A stretch of 64,000 nucleotides of DNA from Saccharopolyspora gloriosae (GTDB lineage Bacteria > Actinomycetota > Actinomycetes > Mycobacteriales > Pseudonocardiaceae), in NCBI RefSeq assembly GCF_014203325.1, contig NZ_JACHIV010000001.1:4279501-4343500 (forward strand). Direction: 5' to 3'. How positions within the stretch are numbered: the first letter of the stretch is position 1; the number at the start of each line of letters is the position of its first letter. Under the pieces are notes generated by a model. It searched no databases. It saw nothing but the letters and a program-made list of their open reading frames with translations, and had not been told where the DNA came from. Below, piece by piece: positions 22,267-44,611 of this stretch. A program made the position numbers and the translations under genes.

Positions 22267-22280
22267 TCTGATGAGTATTG

Positions 22281-22397
22281 TCGGCGGTGTCCTACTCTCC
22301 CACACCCTATCGAGTGCAGTACCATCGGCGCTGGAGGGCTTAGCTTCCGGGTTCGGAATGGGACCGGGCGTTCCCCGCTCCGCTAAAACCACCGACA
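22281..22397 (-). rRNA. rrf: 5S ribosomal RNA
   Basis: About 117 bases; reading on the minus strand gives the helix I ends (TCGGTGG ... CACCGCCGA), the loop sequence GGTCCCATTCCGAACCCGGAAGC and TGGTACTGCACTC typical of actinobacterial 5S. Ends are approximate to a few bases. Confidence 0.95.
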
Positions 22398-22488
22398 AAC
22401 CACATACACCACAAAACAACCAGCACACCGGTCACCGTGGTGAAACCTATTCAGAAATCAACAACCCAAAGTTGTTGTCTCAGACACC

Positions 22489-22514
22489 GTATAGTGGATG
22501 CGTAGCAATCTTTG

Positions 22515-22516
<2 letters not shown>
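22489..22516 (-). other. 3' arm of the 23S precursor processing stem
   Basis: This segment is the reverse complement of 25595-25620 at nearly every base (14 consecutive pairs, then about 10 more with small bulges). In the transcript the two would pair across the 23S gene, giving the RNase III processing stem. Confidence 0.85.
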
Positions 22517-25594
<3,078 letters not shown>

Positions 25595-25620
25595 CACAAA
25601 GATGCTCGCATCCACTATAC
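25595..25620 (-). other. 5' arm of the 23S precursor processing stem
   Basis: Pairs with 22489-22516. A boxA-like element (TTGTTTGAGAACTG on the minus strand) lies immediately upstream in the spacer. The 16S-23S spacer (25595-25814) contains no tRNA gene. Confidence 0.85.
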
Positions 25621-25810
25621 AGTTCTCAAACAACAACCAAGAAAACACACCACGTGTGTTCTCTCAGACACCCAACAGCGTGCACGATGACAATCAAAAC
25701 CGAGTGGCATTTCCACTAATCCTATGAGCCTTCCAGGCAGAAGAACATGCGTCTCCTACACCCGGAACACCCCACAACCCGGTCACCCGGACTATGGATG
25801 TGATATTGCT

Positions 25811-27336
<1,526 letters not shown>

Positions 27337-37917: not shown

Positions 37918-38805
37918 GTGACGATGATCCGCATGCTGACCACTCCCGACCCGCGCATGCTCCGGATCCAACTCGGCATAGAACTGCGCCGTCTACGCGA
38001 GGAAGCCGACCGCAGCACCTTCGAAGCGGCCGATGTGCTGGGCTGCAAGCAGCCGAAGATGAGCAAGGTCGAAGGCGGCAGCCAAGGCATCAAACCCGAG
38101 GAAGTGGTGCAGCTGCTGGATTTCTACGGCGCGCCCGCGAAGCAGCGACGGTATCTCTCCGAGGTCGCCGAGCAGGCGGCGAAGCGCAACCGGCCGAAGA
38201 AGTACCACCGCGACGCCGTCCCCGACTGGTTCCAGCGGTTCCTCGCGCTGGAGAGCGCGGCTACGGAGCTACGGTTGTACGAAGTGGAGATCATCACCGG
38301 GCTGCTCCAGACTGAGGACTACGCACGCTCCACGATCCAGGCGTGGGAGCCCGCGGCTGATCCCCGTGTCGTCGAGCAGCAGGTGCGGACCCGCATCAGT
38401 CGACAAGGCTCATTGTCGCGGTCGCGTTCACCTCTCAAGCTGCACGCCGTGCTCAGCGAAGCCGCCTTGCATCGGATGCAGGGCGACGCGAACACGATGC
38501 GATCGCAGCTGGCACATCTGCTCACCATGTCCGAGCTGCCGAACATCACGCTGCAAGTACTCCCCTTCGCGGTCCCGAACCGGATAGCAGTCACCTCCAG
38601 CGCAATGTTGCTGAACTTGCCCGAACAACGGTTGGCGAGCGTCTACCTGGAGGACTTCTTCGGCGCGACTTATCTCTACGAGCCTGAGGACTACACGCGC
38701 TACAGCGTTCTGTTCGAGCGCTTGAGCGCAGCTGCTCTCCCACACCGTGAAACGCAGGCGCTGATCGCTAAGGTGCTGGATACCTACGCAGTTACCCGCG
38801 ACTGA
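37918..38805 (+). CDS. Helix-turn-helix regulator with DUF5753 (Scr1-like)
   Basis: 295 residues. XRE-type HTH at residues 15-75 (LRRLREEADRSTFEAADVLGCKQPKMSKVEGGSQGI), then DUF5753 with VPDWFQRFLALESAATELRLYEVEIITGLLQTEDYAR and ITLQVLPFAVP. 11 bases upstream of a DUF397 gene, the canonical pair. Such pairs, abundant in actinobacteria, are named antitoxin-like but are best known as developmental regulators. Possible regulator of the WXG-hydrolase module downstream. Confidence 0.9.
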   Translation: MTMIRMLTTPDPRMLRIQLGIELRRLREEADRSTFEAADVLGCKQPKMSKVEGGSQGIKPEEVVQLLDFYGAPAKQRRYLSEVAEQAAKRNRPKKYHRDAVPDWFQRFLALESAATELRLYEVEIITGLLQTEDYARSTIQAWEPAADPRVVEQQVRTRISRQGSLSRSRSPLKLHAVLSEAALHRMQGDANTMRSQLAHLLTMSELPNITLQVLPFAVPNRIAVTSSAMLLNLPEQRLASVYLEDFFGATYLYEPEDYTRYSVLFERLSAAALPHRETQALIAKVLDTYAVTRD

Positions 38806-38816
38806 GAGAGGCTCAA

Positions 38817-39092
38817 ATGGCGGACACGTCCTTAGCTTGGGGGCCTTGGACCAAGTCCAGCCACAGCAGCTCCAGCGGTGGTCAGTGCATCGAGATCGCC
38901 TTTTCGCCCAGCGCCGCCAGCTGGAGGAAGGCTAGTCGCAGCCAGGGAAACGGCGGCGCATGCGTTGAGGTCGCAGTGCAGCCGTCCGTCGTCGGGTTGC
39001 GGGACTCGAAGGACTCCGACGGCCCGGTCCTCGCAGTAGGACGCGGCACCTTCGAGTCGTTCCTGCGGGCGGTCAAATCCGGGCGCGTGTGA
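38817..39092 (+). CDS. DUF397 protein with a duplicated core motif
   Basis: 91 residues, longer than the usual 60-70. The DUF397 core occurs twice: WTKSSHSSSSGGQCIEIAFS and WRKASRSQGNGGACVEVAVQ, followed by the single C-terminal part VGLRDSKDSDGPVLAVGRGTFESFLRAVKSG. ATG 11 bases after the DUF5753 gene with GAGAGG. Partner of that regulator; the half-motif duplication is unusual. Confidence 0.88.
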   Translation: MADTSLAWGPWTKSSHSSSSGGQCIEIAFSPSAASWRKASRSQGNGGACVEVAVQPSVVGLRDSKDSDGPVLAVGRGTFESFLRAVKSGRV

Positions 39093-39172: not shown

Positions 39173-39475
39173 GTGGGATACGAGGTTGTGACCAGGGAGT
39201 TGGAGTCGGCGGCGAAAGCCGCGCGCTCGGCTGCCGAACAGGCCAGGTCGGTGCGGCTCCAGGCCGCCACCGACAAGATCACCCAAGCGATGCCCGGCTC
39301 CACCTCGGCGCCCGCCGCCGGACGCACCGGGAACAGCTGGCGCGGCACGCTCGACACGTGGAACCGGGACACCGAGCACTACGCGGACTCGCTCGACAAG
39401 AGCGCCTCGGACTACGCCGCTCAAGAAGGCGACGCCGCCGACGAGCTCAAGGCCTCCCAGGGCGGTGGCTCCTGA
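39173..39475 (+). CDS. WXG100-like small protein, probable type VII secretion partner
   Basis: 100 residues, no signal peptide. Two predicted helices (about 3-40 and 57-95) separated by a Pro/Ser/Gly-rich turn with Trp56-Arg57-Gly58, a W-x-G motif in the usual place for ESAT-6/WXG100 proteins. GTG start. Its stop overlaps the ATG of the hydrolase gene by one base (TGATG), so the two are made together. Likely the heterodimer partner of the N-terminal WXG domain of the hydrolases. No secretion machinery is in the window; the export route is inference. Confidence 0.75.
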   Translation: MGYEVVTRELESAAKAARSAAEQARSVRLQAATDKITQAMPGSTSAPAAGRTGNSWRGTLDTWNRDTEHYADSLDKSASDYAAQEGDAADELKASQGGGS

Positions 39476-39554
39476 TGGTGAACATCGGCGACCTCCGCCG
39501 CTGGAACCCCGACCTCCTCGACGACGCCATCGACGACCTGAAGCGGGAACAGGA
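39462..39554 (+). repeat. 93-base exact direct repeat, copy 1
   Basis: Identical to 41725-41817 at every base; covers the last codons of the WXG100-like gene and the first 27 codons of hydrolase 1. Spacing between copies is 2263 bases, the length of the duplicated module. Confidence 0.95.
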
Positions 39555-41166
39555 AAGCCTGGTCCGCTTGGACGACGAGCTCGCGAGCTCCGGGAGGCCG
39601 AAGGAGTGGCAGGGCAAAGCGGCCGACTCCGCGAACGCCGAGCACGGCAAGCTCGGCGAACGCATGCGGGAACTCGTCGTCGAGGTGTCCACGGTCCGCA
39701 GCGCGGCCATCCCCACCGTCGACGAGATCCGGGCGGTGCAGGACCAGCTCACCGAAGTCGACGGCCTGGCGCGGGCGTACAACTTCCGCATCGGCGATGA
39801 CGGGAAGGTGCAAGACCTCGGCACTCCCCCGGACACCCCTGCCGACGAGGTCAGCAGCGTCGACGAGAACCGCTACCGCCGGATCCGTCCCGACCTGGTC
39901 GAACGCGTCCAAAACGTCCTGAAGCGCGCGGCCGACGCCGATGCCGAACTGGCCAAGGTCCTCGGCGACGCCGACAAGGACCTGATGGACGCGCGCGGTG
40001 CCAAGAACCTCGCCGACGCGGCGGCGCTCGGTGACGCGCGTGGTCTCGGCGAAACGATCGAACCGCCGCCGCCGGGCGATCCCGCGAAGAACGCCGACTG
40101 GTGGAAATCCCTGCCCGCCGAAACGAAATCCGCGCTCGCCGCCGCTCCCCCGGCCTGGCTCGGCGGCATGGACGGCATCCCCGCGTCCGTCCGCAACACC
40201 GCCAACGTCAACCGCATCGACGACGAACGCAGCACGCTGCAAGCGGAGGCGGCGCGGCTGCAGAGCGCGGTCAACAAGCCACGCCCCGGCCCCGGCGGTG
40301 ACCTGGTCCAAGGCAGGTACCAGCGCGAACTGGACCAGGTCAACTCGAAGCTGACCTCCTTGGACAAGGTGGAGACGGTGTTGGAGCGGGGAGATCGGCA
40401 ACTCCTGGTGCTCGACACCTCCGGCGAGCGCACCAAGGCGGCCGTGGGCATCGGGGACGTCGACACCGCAGACCACGTCAGCGTGTTCACGCCGGGCATG
40501 GACAGCAGCGTCGAAGGCGGAAGCCTGGGCGACTACGACCGGAACATGGACATGCTGGCGCAGGACGCGCAGTCGCAGTCCGACCAGTACGGCGACGGTG
40601 GCGAGGTCGCGACGGTGACGTGGCTCGGTTACGAGGCGCCTCAACTGGACGAGACACTCGACCCCAGCGATTCCGTGGCCAGTTCGGCTCCGGCCAAGCG
40701 CGGCGCCGAAGATCTGGCGGATTTCTACCGGGGCATCAACGAATCTCGGACGGACGATCCGAACCTGGTCGCGATGGGCCACTCGTACGGATCCACCACC
40801 ACGGGGTATGCGCTGCAGGAGGAAGGAACCGGAGTGGACGCCGCGCTCACTCTGGGATCTCCCGGCGTAGGAACACCATCGGTCAGCGATATCAACGTTC
40901 CCGAAGACCGGTTCTACAACCTCGAATCGGGCGGGGACGTCGTCGCCGACCTCGGGCGTTTCGGCGGTGATCCGTCCTGGAAACCGGGGATCGACGACCT
41001 GTCGACCGAGGACGCCGTCGCGCCCGACGGGCAGCGCCTCAAGGAGTCGAGCGGGCACGGCACCGGTGGACCGACCGGCTACCTCACCCGCGGGAACACC
41101 AGCCAGTACAACGCCAGCGTCATCGCGGCCGGAGTCCCGGACCGCGCCGTGAACAGCTGGGGATGA
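39475..41166 (+). CDS. WXG-domain / DUF1023 alpha-beta hydrolase, copy 1
   Basis: 563 residues. N-terminal helical WXG-like domain (1-105) with Trp45-Gln46-Gly47, a middle helical region (about 130-320), then a DUF1023 serine hydrolase domain with VTWLGYEAPQ, nucleophile Ser437 in GHSYG, candidate Asp488 (ESGGDVVADL) and His528 (SSGHGTGG). All triad candidates present. No signal peptide. Downstream lipoprotein gene is 23 bases away or overlapping depending on start. Substrate unknown; an envelope or extracellular target is plausible for a type VII substrate. Confidence 0.85.
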   Translation: MVNIGDLRRWNPDLLDDAIDDLKREQESLVRLDDELASSGRPKEWQGKAADSANAEHGKLGERMRELVVEVSTVRSAAIPTVDEIRAVQDQLTEVDGLARAYNFRIGDDGKVQDLGTPPDTPADEVSSVDENRYRRIRPDLVERVQNVLKRAADADAELAKVLGDADKDLMDARGAKNLADAAALGDARGLGETIEPPPPGDPAKNADWWKSLPAETKSALAAAPPAWLGGMDGIPASVRNTANVNRIDDERSTLQAEAARLQSAVNKPRPGPGGDLVQGRYQRELDQVNSKLTSLDKVETVLERGDRQLLVLDTSGERTKAAVGIGDVDTADHVSVFTPGMDSSVEGGSLGDYDRNMDMLAQDAQSQSDQYGDGGEVATVTWLGYEAPQLDETLDPSDSVASSAPAKRGAEDLADFYRGINESRTDDPNLVAMGHSYGSTTTGYALQEEGTGVDAALTLGSPGVGTPSVSDINVPEDRFYNLESGGDVVADLGRFGGDPSWKPGIDDLSTEDAVAPDGQRLKESSGHGTGGPTGYLTRGNTSQYNASVIAAGVPDRAVNSWG

Positions 41167-41189
41167 CCGACCGAGAGCGGGGACCGACC

Positions 41190-41738
41190 ATGAAGCGCTT
41201 CGCAGTCCTGGCGGCGCTCACCCTGAGCCTCACCGGATGCGGTGGCGGCGAGTTGGGGCCGAAGTTTGGAGGAAGCATGGAAGAGCAGCGCGCCGAACTC
41301 ATGAGCAGGCCCAGCATGGAGGAGGCCAGCGCTCGGTACCTCGAGATGCAAGGTCGCCTCCGGGACGAACTCGCCGCGGCCTTCCCCTGGATCCAATGGG
41401 AGCAGAGCCGCGAGCTCCACCGCGCCGGATGCTCCGACTTCGACGCCTTCACCGATACCGGCGAGAGCCAAACCCTCGGAGCTTGGCGGTCCGAAGGCAA
41501 CATCCCCGACCCCGAGTGGCCTCGCGCTGAGCAGATCGTCGCCCAGGTCAGCGCCGAATACGGCTTCACACCGCCGGAAACCGTCGTCAGCCGCCCCTCC
41601 GACCACCAGGTCGTCGGCAGCGACCGCTACGGCGCGGGCTACCGCTTCGGCACCGCCAAGCGCACCGTCCTCTCCGGCTCCACCGGCTGTCACCTCCCGC
41701 AAGCCGAGAAGGACAAGCTGACACGCGGTGGCTCCTGA
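41190..41738 (+). CDS. LppA-like lipoprotein, copy 1
   Basis: 182 residues. Signal peptide MKRFAVLAALTLSLTGC with lipobox LTGC, so a lipid-anchored exported protein. The mature part has a helical first half (EEQRAELMSRPSMEEASARYLEMQGRLRDELAAAFPWIQWEQ) and a C-terminal domain with two Cys; arrangement resembles the LppA family of mycobacterial lipoproteins. ATG at 41190 matches the start of copy 2; an ATG at 41163 overlapping the hydrolase stop is an alternative. The last residues RGGS come from the duplication junction, replacing the native tail. Possible immunity or adaptor partner of the hydrolase (inference). Confidence 0.8.
   Translation: MKRFAVLAALTLSLTGCGGGELGPKFGGSMEEQRAELMSRPSMEEASARYLEMQGRLRDELAAAFPWIQWEQSRELHRAGCSDFDAFTDTGESQTLGAWRSEGNIPDPEWPRAEQIVAQVSAEYGFTPPETVVSRPSDHQVVGSDRYGAGYRFGTAKRTVLSGSTGCHLPQAEKDKLTRGGS
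41501..41719 (+). repeat. 219-base near-identical repeat, copy 1 (lipoprotein C-terminus)
   Basis: Only 3 mismatches to 43760-43978 by direct comparison, while the 5' halves of the two lipoprotein genes differ strongly. Suggests recent gene conversion or recombination. Confidence 0.9.
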
Positions 41739-41817
41739 TGGTGAACATCGGCGACCTCCGCCGCTGGAACCCCGACCTCCTCGACGACGCCATCGACGAC
41801 CTGAAGCGGGAACAGGA
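41725..41817 (+). repeat. 93-base exact direct repeat, copy 2 (duplication junction)
   Basis: Identical to 39462-39554. Its left end lies within the last codons of lipoprotein 1, so the tail of that gene is a graft of the WXG100-like gene's end: the signature of a tandem duplication joint. Confidence 0.95.
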
Positions 41818-43426
41818 TCGGCTCGTCGGCTTGGACGACGAACTGGCGCACTCCGGTCGGCCGAAGGAGTGGCAGGGCAAAGCGGCCGACTCCGCCACGG
41901 CGGAGCACAGGAAGCTCGGCGAGCGACTGCGCGAACTCGTCGTCGAGGTCTCCACGGTCCGCAGCGCCACCATCGCCACCGCCGACGAGATCCGCGAGAT
42001 CGGCCACGAACTCACCGAAGCCGAAGCGCTCGCCCACTCCCACCACTTCGCGATCGGCGAAGACGGGAGCATCGAAGATCTGGGCACACCGCTCGGCCTC
42101 CACCCCGATGAGGCGGAAAGCGTCAACGAAGACCGGAACAACCGCGTCCGCCCCGACCTCGCCGACCGGGTCGAGCGCATCCTGGCCCGCGCCACGGACA
42201 CCGACCGCGAACTCGCCAAGGTCCTCGGCGACGCCGACAAGGACCTCATGGACACCCGCGGCGCGCACAACCTCGCGGAAGCGGCGGCCCTGGGAGACGC
42301 GCGCGGACTCGGCGAAACGATCGAGCCACCGCCACCCGGTGACCCGAAGCAGAACGCCGAGTGGTGGAAATCCCTGCCCGCCGAAACGAAATCGGCGCTG
42401 GCCACCGCTCCCCCGGCCTGGCTCGGCAACATGGACGGCATCCCCGGAGCAGTCCGCAACACCGCCAACATCAACCGCATCGACGACGAACGCGCGACGC
42501 TGCAAGCGGAAGCAACCCGGCTGCGGAACGAGATCAAGGCACTTCCGAACGGCCCCGGTTCGAGGGGCGACCGCGCCGCGCTGCGCAACCCACTGGACAA
42601 GGTCGAAGCAAAGCTGAAGTCCTTGGACCAGGTGGAGAAGGTCATGGCCAAGTCCGACCGCCAGCTGCTCGTGCTCGACACGTCGGGCGAACGCACCAAA
42701 GCAGCCGTCAGCATCGGGAACGTCGATACGGCCGAACACGTCTCGGTCTTCACACCTGGCCTGAACAGCACAGTCGAGGGAGGTAGCTTGGACGACTACG
42801 ACCGGACCGCCTCACAGCTTCGCTACGACGCGAAACACCAGTCGACGATGTACGGCGACGGCGGCGATGTCGCTGCGGTAACTTGGCTCGGCTACGAAGC
42901 ACCCCAGCTCAACGACAGCATCGGCGAGCAGTCCGTGGTCAGTTCCACCTCCGCCGAACGTGGTGGCGACAAGCTCTCCGACTTCTACCGAGGTATCAAC
43001 GAGTCGCGCGACGACGACCCCCACCTCGTCGCCCTCGGCCACTCGTACGGGTCGACGACCACCGGGTACGCGTTGCAGCATGAGGGAACCGGCGTTGATG
43101 CCGCCGTCACGATGGGTTCCCCAGGAGTGGGAACGGACTCTCCCAGCAACTTCAACATTCCGGCCGGGCAGGCTTACAACATCGAATCCAGCTGGGACCC
43201 GGTCGCTGACCTGAGATGGTTCGGTGGAGATCCCTCCTCAACACCTGGGTTTCAGCAGCTTTCCGCAGACGAAGCCGTCACTCCGGATGGTCAACGCCTC
43301 GAAGCTTCGAGCGGACACAACACCGGCGGGCCGGACGGCTATCTGACCGATGGCAATACGAGCCAGTACAACGCCAGCGTCGTCGCGGCCGGGGTACCCG
43401 AACGCGCAGTTCGGGCATCCGATTGA
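41738..43426 (+). CDS. WXG-domain / DUF1023 alpha-beta hydrolase, copy 2
   Basis: 562 residues, colinear with copy 1 and highly similar throughout. Trp45-Gln46-Gly47 in the WXG-like domain; hydrolase domain with VTWLGYEAPQ, Ser436 in GHSYG, Asp487 (ESSWDPVADL) and His527 (SSGHNTGG). Divergence is concentrated in residues 90-125, the linker around 265-300, and the loops after the nucleophile. ATG overlaps the stop of lipoprotein 1 (TGATG), recreating the coupling that copy 1 has with the WXG100-like gene. No second WXG100-like gene exists, so both hydrolases may share one partner. Confidence 0.85.
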   Translation: MVNIGDLRRWNPDLLDDAIDDLKREQDRLVGLDDELAHSGRPKEWQGKAADSATAEHRKLGERLRELVVEVSTVRSATIATADEIREIGHELTEAEALAHSHHFAIGEDGSIEDLGTPLGLHPDEAESVNEDRNNRVRPDLADRVERILARATDTDRELAKVLGDADKDLMDTRGAHNLAEAAALGDARGLGETIEPPPPGDPKQNAEWWKSLPAETKSALATAPPAWLGNMDGIPGAVRNTANINRIDDERATLQAEATRLRNEIKALPNGPGSRGDRAALRNPLDKVEAKLKSLDQVEKVMAKSDRQLLVLDTSGERTKAAVSIGNVDTAEHVSVFTPGLNSTVEGGSLDDYDRTASQLRYDAKHQSTMYGDGGDVAAVTWLGYEAPQLNDSIGEQSVVSSTSAERGGDKLSDFYRGINESRDDDPHLVALGHSYGSTTTGYALQHEGTGVDAAVTMGSPGVGTDSPSNFNIPAGQAYNIESSWDPVADLRWFGGDPSSTPGFQQLSADEAVTPDGQRLEASSGHNTGGPDGYLTDGNTSQYNASVVAAGVPERAVRASD

Positions 43427-43457
43427 CCGAAGTACTCAGGCACAGAGGAACAAACCG

Positions 43458-43997
43458 TTGAAACGCTTGACGCTTCTCGCAGCCCTGGCACTCAGCCTCA
43501 CGGCCTGTGGCAGCGACGATCCCGCTGAAGGAAGTATGGAAGACCAACGAGCTGAGTTGCTGCAGCGCCCCAGCATCGAAGAAGTCACCTCCCGCTACCA
43601 GGAGATGCACTCCCGCATCCGGGATGAGCTTGCGCAGAGCTTCCCTTCGATTCGTTGGGAAGAAGTCGAGAAGGGAACCAAAGCGGGCTGCATCGGGTTC
43701 GACGACTTCTCCAGTGCGTCCGAGAGCAACACCCTCGCCATGTGGGCCACCGATGGCACCATCCCCGACCCCGAGTGGCCTCGCGCTGAGCAGATCGTCG
43801 CTCAGGTCAGCGCCGAATACGGCTTCACACCGCCGGAAACCGTCGTCAGCCGCCCCTCCGACCACCAGGTCGTCGGCAGCGACCGCTACGGCGCGGGCTA
43901 CCGCTTCGGCACCGCCAAGCGCACCGTCCTCTCCGGCTCCACCGGCTGCCACCTGCCGCAAGCCGAGAAGGACAAGCTCGCGCAGCAGCCCCAGTGA
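43458..43997 (+). CDS. LppA-like lipoprotein, copy 2
   Basis: 179 residues from a TTG preceded by GAGGAA; signal peptide (L)KRLTLLAALALSLTAC with lipobox LTAC. N-terminal mature half diverges from copy 1 (EDQRAELLQRPSIEEVTSRYQEMHSRIRDELAQSF), C-terminal 70 residues are almost identical. Ends KDKLAQQPQ, likely the original tail. Same possible role as copy 1. Confidence 0.8.
   Translation: MKRLTLLAALALSLTACGSDDPAEGSMEDQRAELLQRPSIEEVTSRYQEMHSRIRDELAQSFPSIRWEEVEKGTKAGCIGFDDFSSASESNTLAMWATDGTIPDPEWPRAEQIVAQVSAEYGFTPPETVVSRPSDHQVVGSDRYGAGYRFGTAKRTVLSGSTGCHLPQAEKDKLAQQPQ
43760..43978 (+). repeat. 219-base near-identical repeat, copy 2 (lipoprotein C-terminus)
   Basis: Partner of 41501-41719; three mismatches, all synonymous by reading. 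Confidence 0.9.
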
Positions 43998-44083: not shown

Positions 44084-44611
44084 TCACTTCGGCAAGCCCG
44101 ACGCGGTCTGGTTGACGATCTTCTCCAGCTCAGGGCACGCGTCGATCGAATCGGCCATCTTGCCGGAGATCCCGTAGATGGCCACGCCGCCGCCTGCATC
44201 GACCAAGATGTCGCAGCCCCCGGTGGTCCCTGATCCTGGGACGTTCGCGATCGCGGCCGATCGCCCGGCGATCGACCGCTTCTCGTACTTCTCCCAGTTG
44301 CCACCGGTCTCGTAGGACTCGACGGTCTCATCGACGTTCTTGTGGAGCGTGAGCGACATCTTCTCGCCGGTCCAGCGGCAACCGGGCTCAAAGCTGACCT
44401 GCGTGAACGGCTCGCTCTGAGGCGACAGCCCGAATCCGGTCAAGTCATCAGGGGAGAAGAACGCACAGGGATCGAAGGCCTCCAACGAGGCTCCAGCGGC
44501 ATCCGAGGTCGGCGCCTGGGTCCCATCGCCCTCGCCCAAAGCGCACCCGGACAGCCCGACAAGAACCGCACTGCTGGCCACCACGGCCAGCGACCGGACA
44601 AGCTTGCTCAC
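44084..44611 (-). CDS. DUF3558 lipoprotein
   Basis: 175 residues. Signal peptide with lipobox LSGC at about residues 20-23, a short Thr/Ser-rich linker, then DUF3558 features: FDPCAFFSPDDLTGFGL and the paired Cys in PGCRWTG and GGCDILVD. Members are exported actinobacterial lipoproteins of unknown function. Convergent with the hydrolase module; a functional link is not shown. Upstream 44612-44812 holds no supportable gene. Confidence 0.85.
   Translation of the reverse strand: MSKLVRSLAVVASSAVLVGLSGCALGEGDGTQAPTSDAAGASLEAFDPCAFFSPDDLTGFGLSPQSEPFTQVSFEPGCRWTGEKMSLTLHKNVDETVESYETGGNWEKYEKRSIAGRSAAIANVPGSGTTGGCDILVDAGGGVAIYGISGKMADSIDACPELEKIVNQTASGLPK

Follow-up and report, generated by a model that had tools for sequence, protein, structure and literature searches.

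Antibacterial toxins of type VII secretion systems (T7SS) have been described for Bacillota. In Staphylococcus aureus, the T7SS phospholipase TslA is neutralised by a lipoprotein, TilA (PMC10730906). A 64,000-nucleotide stretch of the Saccharopolyspora gloriosae genome (contig NZ_JACHIV010000001.1; the whole stretch is called the window) contains a module at 39173–43997 that invites comparison with this system. A small WXG100/EspC-like gene is followed by a hydrolase of the Abhydrolase_8 (DUF1023, PF06259) family and an LppA-family (PF16708) lipoprotein, and a second hydrolase–lipoprotein pair lies directly behind. We propose, with a probability of roughly two in three, that the locus is a polymorphic toxin–immunity operon for the ESX-type T7SS of actinobacteria (T7SSa), in which the hydrolase would be exported and toxic and LppA would neutralise it.

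The proposed likeness to TslA, TilA and TlaA1–TlaA2 (T7SSb) covers partners that are small and helical, a lipase-type toxin whose targeting domain is helical, an immunity protein that is a membrane lipoprotein next to the toxin domain and whose gene varies in number, and a polymorphic toxin domain. TslA itself has an N-terminal lipase and a C-terminal targeting domain, and TilA is a DUF576 protein; the window module, in contrast, combines an N-terminal hairpin with a PF06259 enzyme and a PF16708 lipoprotein, and its host system would be T7SSa. Membership of the TslA/TilA group was rejected on the N-terminal hairpin and a PF16708 lipoprotein that has no DUF576 match. The LXG toxin clusters share the order partner–toxin–immunity (PMC10730906, PMC10765036). 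Membership was again rejected, with no LXG domain among the Pfam matches of the window hydrolases up to an E value of 1; a 2023 review states that T7SSa has no LXG proteins associated with it (PMC10765036).

Two further families deserve comparison. TipC immunity proteins have a predicted lipoprotein signal, occur in tandem copies and recombine via conserved end blocks around a variable middle (PMC9484751); the window LppA proteins resemble them in signal, tandem arrangement and probable recombination through conserved blocks. Tox-ABhydrolase-3, an α/β-hydrolase class of polymorphic toxins predicted in 2012, is a predicted lipase-like toxin domain for which WXG-type export is listed among others. 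It is paired with Imm66 and Imm69 rather than with a lipoprotein, and the available part of its description mentions neither LppA nor DUF1023 (PMC3482391). A general Pfam scan gives other family names (PF06259 and PF16708) for the window hydrolases and lipoproteins. Among the matches listed in a search of the open-licence literature, DUF1023 was not described as a T7SS toxin, nor LppA as an immunity protein.

Coupled replacement of the catalytic domain and LppA

Two genomes of the same genus (G046 and G079, loci L035 and L036) are mostly 96–100% identical on both sides of the locus. Within it, the DUF5753 gene upstream, hydrolase residues 81–160, the catalytic domain and LppA are only ∼65–80% identical; the WXG gene and hydrolase residues 1–80 and 161–240 stand at 92–97%. 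A survey took in 26 non-redundant pairs of orthologues, all with flanking identity of 90% or more; its limits were chosen after the table had been seen. The catalytic domain was replaced in five pairs (L035/L036, L209/L211, L209/L212, L211/L212 and L067/L077), and in all five the N-terminal half of LppA was replaced and the WXG part kept. Neither the catalytic domain nor LppA was replaced in the other 21. Because three of the five pairs come from three genomes of Nocardia cyriacigeorgica, the survey amounts to roughly three independent cases, to which the window adds its own. Hydrolase residues 81–160 were replaced only in L035/L036, and the C-terminal half of LppA was less diverged in L211/L212 (0.89), as in the window. 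A conserved trafficking part and a putative toxin domain exchanged with the adjacent partner gene form the sequence pattern of polymorphic toxin–immunity systems. We infer that recombination moved the catalytic domain and LppA as one cassette.

The window holds a case of its own. The gene positions in the original prediction, the one-base overlap of the WXG gene with hydrolase 1 and the two tryptophan motifs were all confirmed by the open reading frames and sequence:

37918–38805, forward strand: regulator-like gene with HTH_31 and DUF5753 (Pfam; DUF5753 E value 9.1e-49)
38817–39092, forward strand: DUF397 small protein (Pfam E value 2.1e-26)
39173–39475, forward strand: WXG100/EspC-like small partner, 100 amino acids, GTG start, W56-R57-G58 and YxxxE at residues 81–85
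39475–41166, forward strand: hydrolase 1, Abhydrolase_8 (DUF1023), W45-Q46-G47 and triad S437/D488/H528
41190–41738, forward strand: lipoprotein 1, of the LppA family, with lipobox Cys17 and the invariant residues Cys81 and Cys167 (predicted start)
41726–41737, forward strand: 12-nucleotide scar joined to the end of lipoprotein 1, probably the 3′ remnant of a second WXG gene that has been lost
41738–43426, forward strand: hydrolase 2, with another catalytic-domain allele
43458–43997, forward strand: lipoprotein 2, LppA family, N-terminal half divergent and C-terminal half 97% identical to lipoprotein 1 (predicted start)

Hydrolase 2 likewise overlaps the stop codon of lipoprotein 1 by one base. 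For lipoprotein 1 the most likely start codon is ATG 41190, and for lipoprotein 2 it is TTG 43458, to which an AGAGGA site points; neither is the start of the longest open reading frame.

The pair had been read as a tandem repeat. It is indeed present twice, but as a mosaic in which the catalytic domain and the N-terminal half of LppA are those of another allele. At the nucleotide level, units 1 and 2 share 90% identity in hydrolase codons 1–80 and ∼70% in the catalytic domain; for the lipoprotein, the N-terminal half stands at 61% and the C-terminal half at 97%. Synonymous divergence between the units is ∼1.3–1.6 in the catalytic domain and LppA N-terminal half and 0.06 in the LppA C-terminal half. 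Unit 1 is 88–95% identical throughout to its orthologues in G137 and G120. For unit 2, hydrolase residues 1–80 show similar identity to unit 1 (90%), the second unit of G120 (88%) and G137 (88%), and residues 81–240 are closest to the second unit of G120 (89–91%). That unit differs from unit 2 in the catalytic domain (69/65%) and LppA N-terminal half (57%), for which the closest relative is the single unit of G101 (81/74% and 75%).

The scar is identical to 39463–39474, and the sister genome G120 keeps six genes, WXG–hydrolase–LppA twice over. This 12-nucleotide identity, together with the intact second WXG gene in G120, suggests that a second WXG gene was deleted in the window and left its last 12 nucleotides as the end of lipoprotein 1. 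The earlier idea that one WXG partner serves two hydrolases fits the window genome, and the arrangement recurs elsewhere, with one recognised WXG gene and two or three hydrolase–LppA pairs in S. shandongensis, S. elongata (L158, L159) and G145 (L059); it appears to be a secondary state, since G120 has a WXG gene before both.

Conservation of the operon and occupants of the LppA slot

The Pfam description of LppA as confined to pathogenic Mycobacterium is contradicted by its presence in the window's family, where 83 of 249 genomes, from 27 of 46 genera, have it; across the order, it was found in 66 of 397 genomes. From ∼109 LppA places in the family, 79 loci were taken, leaving out the window's own and 29 weaker places. 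A hydrolase directly precedes LppA in 66 of the 79, and WXG, hydrolase and LppA follow one another in order in 64. In the family that contains Mycobacterium, where 20 of ∼39 LppA places were taken, a hydrolase precedes LppA in 15. To remove the selection for LppA, named genomes were scanned with the hydrolase alignment and the best 80 of 579 confirmed loci examined, many of them from genomes also among the 79. LppA lies within 3 kb downstream in 64 of the 80; these loci span Saccharopolyspora, Amycolatopsis, Kibdelosporangium, Knoellia, Nocardia, Rhodococcus, Mycobacterium and others. The original prediction had named absence of co-occurrence in relatives as a result that would speak against it, and co-occurrence proved strong in both sets (64/79 and 64/80).

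Other proteins fill the slot in some loci. The fold of LppA matches that of DUF4853 (PF16145, PDB 4mjg), so DUF4853 was suspected in the LppA position. In the 80 loci, the sole full-length lipobox protein directly behind a hydrolase that was negative with the LppA hidden Markov model (HMM) was then scanned and is a DUF4853 protein (38.8 versus a cut-off of 34.8 bits), encoded 15 nucleotides behind the hydrolase in Buchananella (L215), a locus with no LppA. The remaining unrecognised lipobox matches were frames of 69–154 amino acids, mostly overlapping or distant. DUF4853 shares the LppA fold and, in L215, the slot, and differs in being a separate Pfam family with no assigned function. An Actinomyces oris locus without LppA (L224:1521-6164, forward strand) has a hydrolase followed by four tandem proteins of 349–383 amino acids; judged by eye, these resemble paralogues, each with a single membrane anchor. 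In two Crossiella loci without LppA, a small non-lipoprotein gene takes its place. Behind the hydrolases of the other LppA-less loci of the 80, leaving aside a Rhodococcus group, nothing similar was seen. A sample of the phylum yielded 11 long (>500 amino acids) PF06259 frames in 10 LppA-less loci. Directly behind five of them (L267 second frame, L268, L272, L273 and L276) comes a lipoprotein of 171–213 amino acids that has two additional cysteines; among these five, L268, L272 and L273 have a recognisable WXG-type N-terminus that includes the hairpin part.

The ratio of the two genes is also informative. LppA outnumbers full hydrolases in 17 of the 79 family loci (four to one in L097), stands without a hydrolase in eight (one of which, L065, is on a 7.7-kb contig) and adjoins only hydrolase fragments in five. 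Surplus, lone or fragment-adjoining LppA looks like retained immunity and fits poorly with a role as chaperone.

Component proteins and neighbouring genes

Both hydrolases belong to PF06259 (E values 3.8e-33 and 7.5e-35; 115.1 and 120.6 bits against a cut-off of 20.5), a family shown to be α/β hydrolases by Zheng (2005), according to a citing paper (PMC11878206). In the model of hydrolase 1, an N-terminal hairpin (helices 12–38 and 48–101, with WQG 45–47 in the turn) and a middle helical domain precede an Abhydrolase_8 domain of α/β-hydrolase fold (∼306–562). W45 and G47 are each 97% conserved in the alignment of relatives. The candidate triad, described earlier as intact, is fixed: S437, D488 and H528 have a conservation of 1.00 in 76 full-length relatives and are invariant in 63. 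The best named match of the window hydrolase is from Saccharopolyspora sp. HNM0986 (73%). Elsewhere, a paper on competence-gene expression tabulates a mutation in the Micrococcus luteus DUF1023 gene Mlut_18770 (PMC8467076). Four Abhydrolase_8 matches occur in one 4292-residue frame of a genome taken as Mycobacterium (G280:C1:4624002-4630859; locus L263, genus g53), and one in a 4990-residue frame of G268.

The small partner was predicted to be WXG100-like. Its WRG and YxxxE motifs are present, but it scores below the Pfam cut-offs for EspC (18.1 versus 23.5 bits) and WXG100 (PF06013; 13.4 versus 27.3 bits) and below that of TIGR03930 (15.7 versus 44.85 bits), and only 30 of 96 relatives have a strict WxG (W in 84%). 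In a partner alignment of 42 members, EspC was matched by 13 and WXG100 by eight (E value 0.01). Of 96 distinct partner proteins, picked by an HMM that itself contains the motif YxxxD/E, 92 retain its Y and all retain its D/E. The sequence features of a T7SS substrate pair are present, with WxG in the hairpin turn of the effector and YxxxD/E in the partner. EccB, an ESX core component, was found in 64 of 66 LppA-positive and 208 of 331 LppA-negative genomes, a comparison confounded by relatedness and apparently drawn from the same 397 genomes.

The description of the lipoproteins as LppA-like held up, with PF16708 scores well over the cut-off (E values 3e-37 and 1.5e-36; 128.4 and 126.1 versus 26.4 bits), a lipobox and the fold of M. 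tuberculosis LppA (PDB 2v7s), to whose solved chain they are 17–18% identical. All 59 members of the LppA alignment match PF16708. By sequence and fold, M. tuberculosis LppA belongs to the same family as the window lipoproteins. Several Mycobacterium loci have a hydrolase with one to four LppA genes, and in M. tuberculosis lppA presumably follows the DUF1023 gene Rv2542 (gene order Rv2541, Rv2542).

The DUF5753/DUF397 pair had been suggested as a regulator of the module. In the window and in five other loci of the genus (L035–L039), the two genes sit immediately upstream of the module on its own strand. None of the remaining 74 family loci has such a close upstream pair; L072 has DUF5753 alone, 0.7 kb upstream. 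Linkage is confined to the genus, so a regulatory role is not supported beyond it. Between G046 and G079, DUF5753 and the start of DUF397 are hypervariable (66–70%), with flanks mostly at 96–100%.

The host, a soil-type actinobacterium, has a genome of 6.83 Mb in one contig, with three PF06259, two PF16708 and three EccB matches (three of five EccB candidates scored). Its third Abhydrolase_8 hydrolase (L114:7044-9535, reverse strand) has upstream a small gene with a YxxxD tail and downstream an overlapping gene for a 111-residue protein, polytopic by eye, that recalls membrane-type immunity proteins. In the window, a DUF3558 lipoprotein gene (PF12079, E value 1.1e-16; 44084–44611, reverse strand) faces the module end. 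A low-GC stretch is due to the complete 16S-23S-5S rRNA operon at 22279–27336 (reverse strand).

Proposed mechanism and alternative explanations

Conservation supports well the original prediction of a type VII-type effector operon with a helical partner, a hydrolase and a lipoprotein acting as immunity protein or adaptor; of these two roles, we favour immunity. In the proposed mechanism, the small WXG100/EspC-like protein would pair with the WXG hairpin at the hydrolase N-terminus, and model and motif suggest that the hairpin's WxG turn would combine with the partner's YxxxD/E tail into a composite export signal. The C-terminal serine hydrolase, of the esterase/lipase type, would act on rival cells at an extracytoplasmic site, with envelope lipids as its most likely target. 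LppA, anchored to the outside of the producing cell's membrane, would bind the hydrolase domain of its own allele and block it at the active site. New specificities would arise when the catalytic domain and LppA are swapped as one cassette between conserved stretches. In the window, a second unit with a different cassette stands behind the first and, as it lacks a WXG gene of its own, one partner presumably serves both.

Several observations weigh against this interpretation. Some co-replacement is expected from linkage, because the catalytic domain and LppA are adjacent, and in G046/G079 hydrolase residues 81–160 and the DUF5753 gene were replaced as well. Within an allele, purifying selection dominates (ratio of nonsynonymous to synonymous divergence, dN/dS, 0.02–0.34); no positive selection was found, with a 65-codon stretch (hydrolase 241–305) reaching 1.07 between units 1 and 2. 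A recognisable WXG gene, and so all three genes, was present in only two of the 20 loci of the Mycobacterium-containing family, where the HMM may miss diverged ones. The HMM found no LppA in 16 of the 80 hydrolase-found loci, and no lipoprotein lies directly behind six of the 11 long hydrolases of the phylum sample. Rhodococcus hydrolases with a WXG-type N-terminus (L193–L196, L203 and L204) had no membrane-tethered neighbour that we could see; in L194–L196 and L204, the gene ∼0.5 kb downstream encodes what we take to be a peptidyl-prolyl isomerase-like protein. Some hydrolase fragments may be draft-assembly errors. No EccB match was obtained in two LppA-positive genomes of one family, G270 and G328; the full partner–hydrolase–LppA module (L278) is present in G270, whose genome is 97% complete.

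Alternatively, the hydrolase could remodel the cell's own envelope or scavenge lipids, with LppA as its steric chaperone or surface tether rather than an immunity protein. The constant operon order would suit this, a foldase too would be exchanged with its enzyme, and a lipoprotein is well placed to act as a tether. We consider it unlikely in view of the LppA genes that are in surplus, alone or beside fragments (17, 8 and 5 of 79), the other membrane-tethered proteins that fill the slot in some relatives, and the speed of allele replacement, which is unusual for housekeeping enzymes. Also unlikely is a hydrolase that faces a host, predator or phage, with LppA as a surface receptor or adaptor under antigenic or receptor diversification; we rank it slightly lower. 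A hypervariable cassette within otherwise near-identical genomes is what such diversification would produce. One study places M. tuberculosis lppA/lppB among recombination hotspots, with 43% of lppB sites under selection, and reads them as possible antigens, perhaps subject to antigenic variation, with a role still to be investigated (PMC4770551). Yet the catalytic triad is invariant, and antigenic variation alone does not demand that replacement of enzyme and lipoprotein be coupled. The module also occurs in many genera, which we take to be mostly soil-dwelling.

The least probable alternative, and to our minds an improbable one, is an ordinary secreted esterase operon whose age explains the shared neighbours and in which neutral recombination explains the mosaics. 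Tandem copies favour gene conversion, as the 97% identical C-terminal halves of the lipoproteins illustrate, and purifying selection within an allele fits. Single-pair loci were also replaced, however (L035/L036 and the three N. cyriacigeorgica genomes), as was L067/L077, and each time the catalytic domain and LppA were affected.

If the toxin–immunity interpretation holds, the module is a concrete T7SSa counterpart of the antibacterial T7SS toxins, with a lipase-type effector, and the strain pairs with replaced cassettes are ready material on specificity. It would give a function to two families that have none, LppA and DUF4853. More tentatively, ESX-exported esterase/lipase toxins may form a wide family in actinobacteria with LppA as its immunity component, so that T7SSa would also serve interbacterial competition. 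This would offer a possible function for M. tuberculosis LppA and LppB, and the recombination and selection at lppA/lppB would then reflect toxin–immunity evolution rather than antigenic variation.

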